This document shows, piece after piece, positions 19,243 to 29,179 of a stretch of 33,512 nt of DNA. Origin of the DNA: Spirochaetales bacterium (lineage in GTDB: Bacteria > Spirochaetota > Spirochaetia > Treponematales > Treponemataceae); contig QKDA01000205.1 of assembly GCA_003246765.1 (NCBI GenBank), positions 1-33,512 of the forward strand, in the 5' to 3' direction. The position numbers were made by a program, and so were the translations under genes. How positions within the stretch are numbered: position 1 is the first letter of the stretch; the number at the start of each line of letters is the position of its first letter. The notes under the pieces are model-generated. The model made no database searches. It was not told the DNA's origin and saw only the letters and a list, made by a program, of their open reading frames with translations.

Positions 19243-19695
19243 ATGAAGGACATGGAATTACAGACAAAGGCGATGGGCACCGTATCCATCGTAGAACGCC
19301 AGATCATTGAGCTCCCCAACGGGTTTTACGGCTTTGAGCCGTTTAAGCGTTTTGCCCTGCTTGACGCCCCCCAAAAACCCTTTATTTGGGTACAGTCCCT
19401 GGACAAAAAGGATCTTGCCTTCCTGGCCCTTGACCCCTTTTTATTCAGGGAGGATTACGAGATCGACATCGACGATTCCCTCTTGAAGCCCCTGTCCATC
19501 GCCTCTCCCTCGGACGTCCTCGTTTTCGCCCTCGTGACGGTTCCATCCGACGGCTCGCCCGTTACGGCGAATCTCCAGGGGCCGCTTATCATCAACCGGG
19601 TAAACAATCTCGCCATGCAGGTTATCCTCTCGGACCCGAAGTGGAAGACCAAGCATGATCTCGTAGCGGAAACCGCCGCACTGCGGGGCCGCTGA
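19243..19695 (+). CDS. fliW: Flagellar assembly factor FliW, CsrA antagonist
   Basis: FliW binds CsrA and flagellin alternately. When flagellin is exported, free FliW sequesters CsrA and relieves repression of flagellin mRNA (established in Bacillus subtilis and Campylobacter). The 150-residue product has [19 protein letters not shown], the FliW signature near the N-terminus, followed by [23 protein letters not shown] and [20 protein letters not shown], the PLvIN...Q segment. The start may be ATG 19243 or, preferably by family length, ATG 19252 (MELQTKAMG), for which GAAGG lies just upstream. It follows flgL by three bases and overlaps csrA (TGATG), so FliW and CsrA are translationally coupled. 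Confidence 0.96.
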
Positions 19696-19922
19696 TGCTG
19701 ATACTGTCAAGAAAGGTAAACGAAAAGATCATGATCGGGGAGGACATATCCCTCACGATCATCGAGATCCGGGGAGATCAGGTCAAGGTAGGCGTGGAAG
19801 CCCCTAAGTCGGTGAAGGTGTTCCGCCAAGAGGTCTATGAGGCCATTCAGAACGAGAACCGGGCTGCCGCGACGTCCGTTCCCAGCCTGGAAAGCCTTCA
19901 GGGCATCATTCCCCAAAAATAG
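19695..19922 (+). CDS. csrA: Carbon storage regulator CsrA (RNA-binding translational repressor)
   Basis: CsrA is a small dimeric RNA-binding protein that binds GGA motifs in hairpin loops, usually at ribosome-binding sites. The 75-residue protein starts [18 protein letters not shown] and carries [25 protein letters not shown]4 and the arginine of VFRQE, the two residues central to RNA contact, are both present. The C-terminal tail extends about 15 residues beyond the E. coli protein, as in other CsrA proteins paired with FliW, where that extension contributes to FliW binding. Its ATG overlaps the fliW stop. Candidate targets lie in this window: the leaders of both flaB genes. It converges on the HD-GYP gene with 11 bases between stops and no obvious terminator. 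Confidence 0.98.
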
Positions 19923-26957: not shown

Positions 26958-27809
26958 TTACTGCATCAGCCTGAGGACTGACTGCGGCTGCGAGTTGGCC
27001 TGCGCGATCATCGCGTTTCCAGCCTGCGCAAGGATCTGGTTCTTGGTGAAGTCGACCATTTCCTTGGCCATATCGGCATCGCGAATGCGCGATTCCGCGG
27101 CCTGCAGGTTTTCGGAGGCGATTGAAATCCCCTTGTACGCCATTTCGAACCGGTTCTGGTAGGCGCCGAGGTCGGCGCGCTGCTTGGAAACGGTCTTGAG
27201 GGCAGAGTCGAGGGACGCGATGGCCATATTGGCGCCGTCAACAGAAGACAATGAAATCATGGAAGTGGTTCCCTGGGTTCCGGTGAGACCGAGTGACTCT
27301 GCAGTCATGGTCCCGATAAAAATCTTCTCGTTCTGGTCCACATTGGCTCCAACCTGGAGCTGCATGGCTCCCGTGGCGGATCCGGAGGCAAAACGACCGG
27401 TCAGGATGTTCATTCCGTTGAACTGCGCGTGGCTAGCGATGCGGTTAACCTCATCGACGAGCTGGGAGACTTCAACCTGAATCTGCATTCGATCCTCGGT
27501 GGAGTACACTCCGTTCGAGGACTGGATGGCAAGTTCGCGAAGCCTTTGGATGATGTCGGTCGTCTCGTTCAGGTAACCTTCGGTTGCCTGGATGAAAGAC
27601 ACGCCATTTTGGATATTCTGCCCGGCCTGGTTAAGGCCGCGGATCTGACTCCGCATCTTTTCAGATACGGCCAGTCCGGAAGCGTCGTCTCCAGCACGGT
27701 TGATGCGCTGCCCGCTCGAGAGCTTCTCTATATTCCTGCGCAGGTCGGCCTCGTTGACGCCGGTCTGCCTCTGGGAATACATAGCGCTCATGTTGTGGTT
27801 TATAACCAT
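26958..27809 (-). CDS. flaB: Flagellin FlaB (second copy), periplasmic flagellar core protein
   Basis: A 283-residue flagellin. I start it at ATG 27809 because GGAGGG lies directly upstream and [69 protein letters not shown] is the classic spirochaete FlaB N-terminus. The D0/D1 helices are complete at both ends (closing [44 protein letters not shown]), with only a short central domain, as in FlaB core proteins of periplasmic flagella. FlaB carries no signal peptide and is exported by the flagellar type III system. It differs clearly from the other copy ([26 protein letters not shown]), so the two subunits may play separate parts in the filament. It lies 312 bases downstream of the first copy. 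Confidence 0.97.
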
Positions 27810-27814
27810 TATGA

Positions 27815-27855
27815 CCCTCCTTGAAGTCTTTGGTAATCCGGCAATCCTTGCCAGA
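27815..27855 (-). promoter_or_regulatory. Twin candidate CsrA-binding sites in the flaB2 leader
   Basis: In mRNA sense an 8-bp stem UCUGGCAA/UUGCCGGA (one G-U pair) presents a GGA triloop (27837-27855) inside CAAGGAUUG. Thirteen bases later CAAGGAGGG (27815-27823) is the ribosome-binding site. The two GGA triplets are 27 nt apart. CARGGA is the core of the CsrA consensus. Binding itself is inferred. Confidence 0.62.
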
Positions 27856-27918
27856 AAACCGTACTGCATTGTTCCTTCGCCCGGGTCGAGAGAGCGCCTC
27901 TCCGTTCCGAAACGACGT

Positions 27919-27978
27919 ACACAGTACGTACCATTTGCCTCGCCAAGTTACGAATAAGACAAATGGTCCATACTGTGT
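27919..27978. repeat. 19-bp inverted repeat in the flaB1-flaB2 spacer
   Basis: Arms at 27919-27937 and 27960-27978 (ACACAGTACGTACCATTTG and the near complement of it) pair at 17 of 19 positions in DNA and 18 of 19 in the minus-strand RNA, where one mismatch becomes G-U. The loop is 22 bases. It would be a large hairpin in the flaB2 5' leader about 110 bases before the start codon. Confidence 0.8.
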
Positions 27979-28110: not shown

Positions 28111-28139
28111 ATTATACTACGTTATCTCAGAAGAGACAA
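28111..28139 (-). promoter_or_regulatory. Sigma-70-type promoter candidate for flaB2
   Basis: On the minus strand TTGTCT (28134-28139), a 17-base spacer and a perfect TATAAT (28111-28116) straddle the flaB1 stop codon. It would give flaB2 a leader of about 295 bases. No sigma-28 site was found for flaB2. Confidence 0.55.
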
Positions 28140-28982
28140 TACTTGCTGGCTGTTTGTGTTGGCCTGGGCAAGCATCGCAGTACCGGACTGCGAAAGAACC
28201 TGGTTCTTCGTGTACTCGACCATGGCCTTGGCCATGTCCGTGTCACGGATGCGGGATTCCGCGGCGGTCAGGTTTTCGGCGGCGATATTGAGCCCGCCGA
28301 CCGCGTGGGTCAGCCGGTTCTGGTACGCGCCGAGGTCGGCCCGCTGCTTGTTGACGGTCTTCAGGGCGCTGTCGATGACACCGATGCTGCGGTTAGCGGA
28401 ATCGGCGTTCTCGAGGGTCATGATGCTACCGTCACCCACGCTCCGAACCCCAAGGGCTGCGGCAGTCATGGTACCGATGTAAACGCGGACCCGCTGGTCC
28501 ATGTTCGCACCGATGTGGAACCACATGGAGCCTGTAACCATGTTTTCGCCGGTTTCCCGGGCGAAACGGCCGGTCATCATGTTCATTCCGTTGAACTGCG
28601 CGGCGCTGGCGATTCTGTCCACTTCCGCCACCAGCTGAGAAACCTCGACCTGGATCTGCATGCGGTCTTCGGCGGAATAAATTCCGTTCGAGGACTGCAC
28701 CGCGAGTTCGCGGATGCGCTGCAGAATGTCGCTGGTCTCCTGGAGGTAGCCCTCGGTGGCCTGGATAAAGCTGATACCGTTCGAAGCGTTCTGGGAAGCC
28801 TGGTTCAGTCCGCGAACCTGGCTCCTCATCTTCTCGGATACCGCAAGACCCGAAGCATCGTCACCGGCTTTGTTGATCCGCATTCCGGACGACAGCTTGG
28901 CGACGTCGTTCTGAATACTGTCGTTGGTGACACCGAGCGTTCGCTGAGCGAACATGGCAGAGAGGTTGTGGTTGATAACCAT
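28122..28982 (-). CDS. flaB: Flagellin FlaB (first copy), periplasmic flagellar core protein
   Basis: A 286-residue FlaB flagellin starting at ATG 28982 (GGAGG upstream) with [69 protein letters not shown]. Both terminal helical domains are intact (ending [44 protein letters not shown]). The central segment [39 protein letters not shown] is characteristic of treponemal FlaB. It has a sigma-28-like promoter about 170 bases upstream and a structured leader with two canonical CsrA-type hairpins, one covering the ribosome-binding site. It is first in the order flaB-flaB-flaG-fliD. Confidence 0.98.
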
Positions 28983-28985
28983 AGT

Positions 28986-29033
28986 CATTCCTCCGTGGAA
29001 TGTTGTTTTCCGGGAAGCATCCATGTTTCCCGG
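28986..29033 (-). promoter_or_regulatory. Twin canonical CsrA-binding hairpins in the flaB1 leader
   Basis: In mRNA sense the upstream hairpin is CCGGGAA-ACAUGGAUGC-UUCCCGG (29010-29033): a perfect 7-bp stem with ACAUGGAUG in the loop, close to the CsrA consensus RUACARGGAUGU. Seven bases later CAUUCC-ACGGA-GGAAUG (28986-29002) is a 6-bp stem whose loop GGA is the start of the GGAGG ribosome-binding site, three bases from the start codon. The two GGA triplets are 28 nt apart, which suits bridging by one dimer. The layout parallels the two CsrA sites of the B. subtilis hag leader. Confidence 0.75.
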
Positions 29034-29151
29034 TCGGAAACCAAAAAAAGGGTATTAAGTCCTTCTCCGGGCTTCCGATAGTGAAGATAGGGGCCGACTT
29101 CATCGTATGCCCGCTCGGGCAGCGTTGGGGCCGACACCAACTCCGGTATAT

Positions 29152-29179
29152 TTATCGGCAGGGCGGGAGAGGGACTTGA
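29152..29179 (-). promoter_or_regulatory. Sigma-28 (FliA) promoter of flaB1
   Basis: Minus-strand GCCGATAA (29152-29159) is a perfect FliA -10 box. TCAAGTCC (29172-29179) lies 12 bases upstream and matches TAAAGTTT at five of eight positions. Transcription would begin near 29145 and give a leader of about 160 bases. The -35 half overlaps the start codon of the divergent methyltransferase gene. Confidence 0.75.

Follow-up and report, generated by a model that had tools for sequence, protein, structure and literature searches.

The flagella of spirochaetes lie inside the cell envelope and contain several flagellins, whose synthesis is thought to be controlled partly after transcription (PMC3757020). 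The locus described here raises the question of how such control might be written into a flagellin mRNA. In the window, the whole 33,512-nucleotide stretch of Spirochaetales DNA that was analysed, the flagellin gene flaB1 is preceded by two short hairpins, each with a GGA in its loop, and the second GGA opens the Shine-Dalgarno (SD) sequence. Is this leader a target of the RNA-binding protein CsrA, as an earlier note on this DNA proposed, and how widely is the arrangement shared?

Layout of the flaB1 leader

The gene flaB1, the first tandem flagellin gene, lies on the minus strand (28122..28982; ATG at 28982-28980) and encodes 286 amino acids with Flagellin_N and Flagellin_C domains (scan from residue 7). 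Seven bases separate the ATG from the SD, GGAGG (28990..28994, minus strand). Further upstream on the same strand is hairpin 1, CCGGGAA-ACAUGGAUGC-UUCCCGG (29010..29033), which in the DNA consists of CCGGGAA (29033-29027), ACATGGATGC (29026-29017) and TTCCCGG (29016-29010). It is followed by a linker of 7 nt, AAAACAA (29003..29009), and then by hairpin 2, CAUUCC-ACGGA-GGAAUG (28986..29002), made up of CATTCC (29002-28997), ACGGA (28996-28992) and GGAATG (28991-28986). The two hairpins are thus exact to the base as first described, with perfect stems and the 7-nt gap. The GGA of the hairpin 1 loop occupies 29022-29020 and that of the hairpin 2 loop, which is also the first GGA of the SD, begins at 28994; the spacing of 28 nt between the triplets is likewise borne out.

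The sigma-28 consensus is TAAAGTTT/GCCGATAA, and a search with it places a sigma-28-like promoter of flaB1 at 29152..29179 on the minus strand (TCAAGTCC, 12 nt, GCCGATAA). Sites of this kind occur in 56 of 77 flaB1-clade upstream regions, against 3.15 expected from mononucleotide shuffles, which keep single bases only. The predicted leader would be about 160 nt long and, with the promoter at 29179-29152, both hairpins should therefore lie within the mRNA. The AUG at the end of hairpin 2 (28988-28986) is not kept, many relatives having GGAATA or GGAAAA there. An in-frame upstream start at the AUG of loop 1 (29024) was considered and rejected, since AAGG, ACGG or AGGG stands at that place in many relatives.

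Some minor features of the region deserve mention. Folding of the leader gives a long hairpin in its upstream part, and the 131-nt fragment at 28950-29080 has a z-score of -4.23. On the plus strand, hairpin 2 (28986-29002) and the TTGTTTTCC after it obtain a terminator-like score, which the hairpin itself probably accounts for. Matches to the Rfam families His_leader, RNaseP, miRNA and sRNA fall far below their cut-offs and were set aside as chance.

Conservation and covariation of hairpin 1

We collected 189 distinct flagellin-gene leaders, of which 187 were placed in three clades of a flagellin tree; the tree is without two second-gene leaders (L049 and L057), whose proteins are cut short. 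The clades are named here flaB1 for the first tandem gene (79 leaders), flaB2 for the second tandem gene (73) and flaB3 for the orphan gene (35). In T. denticola, FlaB1 is TDE1477, FlaB3 is TDE1475 and FlaB2 is the separate TDE1004 (PMC9481697). Because of the gene order and the CCAAAGGAGTAG leader, the second tandem flagellin, our flaB2 clade, would correspond by its tandem place to flaB3 in the T. denticola naming.

The same detector was run throughout on the leaders and on 100 dinucleotide shuffles. A hairpin with GGA in its loop upstream of the SD is present in 76 of the 79 flaB1-clade leaders, where shuffles gave a mean of 7.6 and a maximum of 13. The second tandem clade has such a hairpin in 66 of 73 leaders (shuffles, mean 7.4, maximum 14) and the orphan clade in 8 of 35 (mean 1.6, maximum 6), 27 being without it. 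The GGA stands in an A-N-GGA context in 75 of 76 flaB1-clade hairpins, in all 66 of the second tandem clade and in five of the eight orphan hairpins. Among the flaB1-clade leaders, 64 of 76 have the two GGAs 22-29 nt apart.

Three flaB1-clade leaders failed the detector (L009, L011 and L115), and L102 passed but lacks the A of the loop; the set in which covariation was counted, alignment A1, is therefore 75 of 79. In L009 and L011, two relatives of the same genus, the loop is intact and stem 1 is mismatched; in L115 the hairpin is present, placed further upstream. In A1, where the 75 hairpins are in register, the loop A-N-GGA is invariant. Its stem cells are paired in 92.4% of cases, as against 60.1% when the 3′ letters are dealt anew and at most 49.7% when they are slid. 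All eight stem pairs change on both sides, with 182 such cells against 55 expected, a count that, like all our covariation counts, takes no account of the tree. The members of A1 were picked by a detector that requires a stem, yet they make up nearly the whole clade. An alignment of the leader across relatives had been suggested as a check on the proposal, and for stem 1 it returns covariation with an invariant GGA. With 33 nt of coding sequence in the fold, hairpin 1 of this genome has a pair probability of 0.99. Its loop fits the consensus published for CsrA, RUACARGGAUGU (as quoted in PMC8668096).

Hairpin 2 and the Shine-Dalgarno sequence

For hairpin 2 the evidence is thinner. An SD hairpin is found in 57 of 79 flaB1-clade leaders, a weaker excess than that of hairpin 1, as shuffles have a mean of 41 and a maximum of 48. 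In an alignment of 43 leaders from the window's own family (A2, 35 of them distinct), hairpin 2 is 88.1% paired against 82.7%; three inner pairs are invariant, one pair varies on one side and two change on both sides. One outer pair switches jointly between A-U and U-A, in 16 and 12 of the 35 distinct leaders. Among 37 distant leaders the stem is 79.6% paired against 70.6%, with two-sided changes at four pairs, but these leaders are the matches of a model that itself contains the hairpin 2 stem. It is because of these respective enrichment and covariation counts that we regard hairpin 1 as strongly supported and hairpin 2 as moderately supported, its covariation resting on few variable pairs. 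Covariation expected in both stems thus appears in full in stem 1 (eight of eight pairs) and in a few variable pairs in stem 2.

An alternative is that hairpin 1 is the one structured CsrA site, with the GGAGG of an unstructured SD providing the second contact; the stem of hairpin 2 would then be a by-product of a conserved UUCC together with GGAA, and the SD of this genome would pair with codons 6-8. We consider this possible but rather doubtful. It agrees with the modest excess of hairpin 2 over shuffles and with the folds. When almost no coding sequence is included, both flaB1 hairpins form. For hairpin 2 of this genome, the pair probability drops from 0.98 when 6 nt of coding sequence are included to 0.26 with 33 nt, since CCUCU in codons 6-8 then pairs with GGAGG. 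In the two nearest relatives, the values with coding sequence are 0.05 (L004) and 0.04 (L032), and the median over 33 flaB1-clade leaders from outside the family is 0.01. Against it, 32 of the 43 own-family leaders keep hairpin 2 at a probability above 0.5 with coding sequence included. The A-U/U-A switch of the outer pair and the four two-sided changes in distant, model-selected lineages also speak for a stem that is maintained. Finally, the UUCC arm does not have to serve as an SD, but among 41 family leaders its sole departure is UUUC, in four of them.

The reading in which both hairpins serve as CsrA sites therefore has to be qualified. The claim that hairpin 2 sequesters the SD holds in that the SD is inside a short hairpin, but in this mRNA that is not the preferred fold once coding sequence is included; the SD is predicted to be partly paired under either fold. 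Likewise, the sequence does contain two sites of the CsrA type, the second of them at the ribosome-binding site, while the stability and the covariation of hairpin 2 are weaker than had been stated.

csrA and fliW

The window also encodes the candidate regulators, as the earlier note had read from the sequence and as matches to the two chains of a solved structure now confirm. The gene fliW, for the proposed CsrA antagonist, lies at 19243..19695 on the plus strand (best solved relative 5dmb_A, FliW, 4.4e-27), and csrA lies at 19695..19922 on the same strand (5dmb_D, 1.2e-17). The latter is the only copy found in the assembly, which is 91% complete. Both genes come after flgN-flgK-flgL in one plus-strand cluster.

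Across the phylum sample, csrA was found in 267 of 281 flagellin-bearing genomes and in none of the 15 flagellin-less genomes. This cross-table of csrA and flagellin was made by hand, and nine genomes count in it as csrA-less because the csrA list does not include them; of the 14 flagellated genomes without csrA, 10 are under 90% complete and one that carries the motif (G018) is listed at 99%. We also built a covariance model of the hairpin pair, R1, from an alignment (A3) of the 43 family leaders that leaves out L022 and L111, which have long linkers. Among flagellated genomes, R1 shows no association with csrA, matching 98 of the 267 that have the gene and 4 of the 14 in which it was not detected; it matches none of the 15 flagellin-less genomes.

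The second tandem flagellin and Termite-flg

The second tandem flagellin of the window, which the earlier note had not included, carries a hairpin pair of its own. The gene (26958..27809, minus strand) is assigned to the flaB2 clade by its flagellin domains and the tree. Its hairpin 1, UCUGGCA-AGGAU-UGCCGGA, lies at 27837..27855 on the minus strand, and a possible SD hairpin, GACUU-CAAGGA-GGGUC (27813..27828, minus strand), is absent from the minimum free energy fold of a 101-nt fragment.

The same leader matches the Rfam family Termite-flg (RF01729) at 27831..27936 on the minus strand. Since its 24.9 bits are below the gathering score of 40, we regard the leader as related to RF01729 and do not file it as a member. 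A same-genus relative (L012) reaches 32.7 bits in the same leader, the sole match at E ≤0.1 among 17 loci, and the flaB1 leader has no RF01729 match up to E 5. Within the order, 90 of 390 genomes have an RF01729 match above the cut-off. Matches at E ≤0.01 occur in 109 genomes, all of one family (f5) except for one genome each of f1 and f4, both below the cut-off. In all 30 loci of the best matches (L115-L144), a flaB gene starts just downstream and an A-N-GGA stands 22-60 nt before the ATG.

As defined, Termite-flg was known from the termite hindgut only, and was judged certain to be an RNA, probably cis-regulatory and probably not a riboswitch (PMC2864571). The main text of that paper does not contain the word CsrA, and we found in it no function assigned to the element. 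No other paper using the name or the accession was found in the literature searched. The 3′ hairpin of RF01729, GGCA-AGGAU-A-GCC, falls on the GGA hairpin of the second tandem leader and stands before flaB; we therefore propose the 3′ hairpin of Termite-flg as a candidate CsrA site. This hairpin is the same as hairpin 1 of the second tandem flagellin; Termite-flg differs in having a long 5′ domain. In most of L115-L144, the apical GGCGCGAAAC loop of that domain contains CGAAAC, the complement of a GUUUCG close to the 5′ end. A pseudoknot, absent from the Rfam structure line shown, might form by this pairing, and the complementarity is missing from some loci (such as L135, L136 and L137).

Seven of the 73 leaders of the second tandem clade fail the hairpin detector. 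In five of these seven (L076, L077, L079, L085 and L105), a stem is kept at the place of hairpin 1 and the GGA of the loop is replaced by AUGAA, CGAUG or AGAUG. CsrA binding at that place therefore cannot be general, and in some gut treponemes the site has apparently been lost or has another role. A purely structural role of the stem would allow such loops, and the hairpins could then be docking sites for another RNA-binding protein, or a device for mRNA stability, rather than CsrA targets. We think this very unlikely, given the fit of the loop to RUACARGGAUGU and the co-occurrence of csrA and flagellin across the phylum sample.

The orphan flagellin and other sites in the genome

A third, orphan flagellin is encoded elsewhere in the assembly (G000:C44), with CGGC[AGGGAU]GCCG some 60 nt before its ATG. 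Its leader (G000:C44:3251-3313) has this hairpin, a second GGA (AAAGGAUAC) and an AAAGGAG SD, and may offer three CsrA contacts. With hairpins in the flaB1, second tandem and orphan leaders, the three flagellin genes found in the assembly all carry an ANGGA hairpin. The orphan-clade leaders of gut Treponema (such as L050, L052 and L099) are of another type, sharing a CCACCAUGUGUUUUAUC block and a AAGGAGAUUAUUAUGG start and having no hairpin pair.

Further strong double-element targets were not found in this genome, in which R1 matches only flaB1 at E up to 1. The pattern GCANGGATGC occurs at 29 sites, against 14 for the reversed pattern used as a control. Two or more outer pairs can form at seven of the 29, and one of the seven, the site ahead of the third flaB, has an SD-led open reading frame after it. 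These searches speak to strong sites, and weaker ones may exist.

A proposed mechanism

CsrA is a dimer with two RNA-binding faces, and one dimer can bridge sites about 10-60 nt apart. Several features that mark a CsrA-repressed leader of the hag/flaB type were found at this locus: two GGA sites, the downstream one overlapping the SD; an upstream ANGGA hairpin with a covarying stem; a distance between the sites, 28 nt, within the range that one dimer can bridge; and genes for csrA and fliW. The best explanation is, very probably, that CsrA represses flaB1 by means of a two-site switch in the leader and that FliW relieves the repression. CsrA would most likely contact the ANGGA in the loop of hairpin 1 and, 28 nt downstream, the first GGA of the SD, and by bridging the two it would block access of the ribosome. 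While flagellin is being exported, FliW would be free to take CsrA off the leader, and flaB1 would be translated. When flagellin builds up in the cytoplasm it would hold FliW, and the CsrA thus released would stop translation. Hairpin 1 is conserved and covaries, its GGA is invariant in the aligned flaB1-clade leaders, and csrA and fliW are present; binding, bridging, repression and the feedback between FliW and flagellin are what we infer from the sequences.

Could the leader work without a protein, as an RNA thermometer or an intrinsic lock on the SD? Hairpin 2 would then open with temperature and hairpin 1 would be structural, and the position of the SD within a short hairpin is in keeping with this. 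Such a device, however, leaves the invariant ANGGA loop, the covarying stem 1 and the narrow spacing unexplained, and we give it only a slight probability. That the hairpins are chance inverted repeats is hardly credible, and for hairpin 1 is contradicted, given the enrichment and covariation over many genomes, even if the 75-nt leader is unremarkable in free energy (z -1.27, with 17 of 200 shuffles folding equally well).

Relation to known CsrA-controlled leaders

The earlier note supposed that such a layout had gone undescribed for periplasmic spirochaete flagellins. This does not stand, as CsrA control of flagellin genes is published for Borrelia and Leptospira and has been proposed for T. 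denticola; since it is in print, the mechanism suggested for flaB1 is of a known kind. In B. burgdorferi, also a spirochaete with a periplasmic flagellin, CsrA is reported to repress flaB at its leader (Sze et al. 2011, PMC3212630), and flaB has been classed among the CsrA targets in which several sites surround the SD (PMC4066749). A 2021 study of Leptospira describes a GGA hexaloop near the SD, as here: CsrA gave a gel shift with the L. interrogans flaB4 leader, and that of L. biflexa flaB3 was lost when GGA was changed to AAA (PMC8668096). It differs in describing one site per leader and in that csrA overexpression in L. interrogans raised flaB transcripts, unlike the repression proposed here (PMC8668096). 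For T. denticola, which has the same flgN-flgK-flgL-fliW-csrA cluster, CsrA sites near the SD of flaB1 and flaB2 were stated in 2022 as found, in a main text that does not use the words hairpin or stem (PMC9481697). T. putidum, a relative of T. denticola, falls in the family of the window (G093 and L046, the same place).

The comparison drawn with the hag leader of B. subtilis also holds. That flagellin leader, too, has two CsrA sites, the second of which reportedly covers the SD and blocks ribosome binding. BS1 (A51-A55) and BS2 (C75-G82) are about 24 nt apart (Yakhnin 2007, quoted in PMC8523840), close to the 28 nt of flaB1. The differences are that B. subtilis is of another phylum and that binding, repression and FliW antagonism were measured there, whereas our case is made from sequence. 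Sites have likewise been predicted for fliC of C. difficile, TGACAAGGATGT and CTAAGGAGGG (PMC8523840). In a search limited mainly to openly readable main texts, we found no description of a covarying pair of hairpins that recurs in many families and on several paralogues. The ANGGA hairpin on all three flagellin genes of this genome and the identity of the Termite-flg 3′ hairpin were not found described either.

Reach across the phylum

R1 matches 102 of 296 genomes of the phylum, including 48 of 49 in the window's own family. Outside the order, R1 matches 49 genomes, 40 of which were read, at one place each. By tblastn, 36 of these places have a flagellin right downstream, and a further one (L260), where the sequence ends after MIIN, was counted as the 37th flagellin place. 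All 37 flagellin leaders have A-N-GGA at the place of hairpin 1, as expected given the model. The three other places precede FlgN (L267), an AraC-type regulator (L258) and nothing clear (L269).

Twelve genomes of the same class that R1 mostly or wholly misses were looked at separately, and 11 of these have a relative of FlaB1. Among the 20 distinct leaders of those 11, an ANGGA hairpin with at least four pairs is present in 18, and with at least five pairs in 17. Five of the genomes, small ones that are Borrelia-like in size and sequence, are not among the R1 matches and have a wider spacing of the sites than here; they carry the upstream hairpin GACAA[AUGGAU]UUGUC (three genomes) or a variant of it (two), and their SD reads ACGGAGG in four and AUGGAGG in one.

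It is tempting to propose, though with rather less than even confidence, that the two-hairpin CsrA switch is ancestral and phylum-wide, that its variants on the different paralogues help to set the make-up of the filament, and that Termite-flg is its elaborated form on the second tandem flagellin, a CsrA hairpin to which a conserved 5′ RNA domain has been added. A covarying element at flagellin starts in many families provides a map of where CsrA is expected to act, for uncultured species and for each paralogue, and suggests, for part of Termite-flg, a function that can be tested.

The R1 match at L267 is of a different kind, its double element (G511:C60, near 101-150) standing before an flgN gene (PF05130, 2.4e-21). 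As flgN heads the cluster flgN-flgK-flgL-fliW-csrA elsewhere in spirochaetes, CsrA may control its own cluster at this place.
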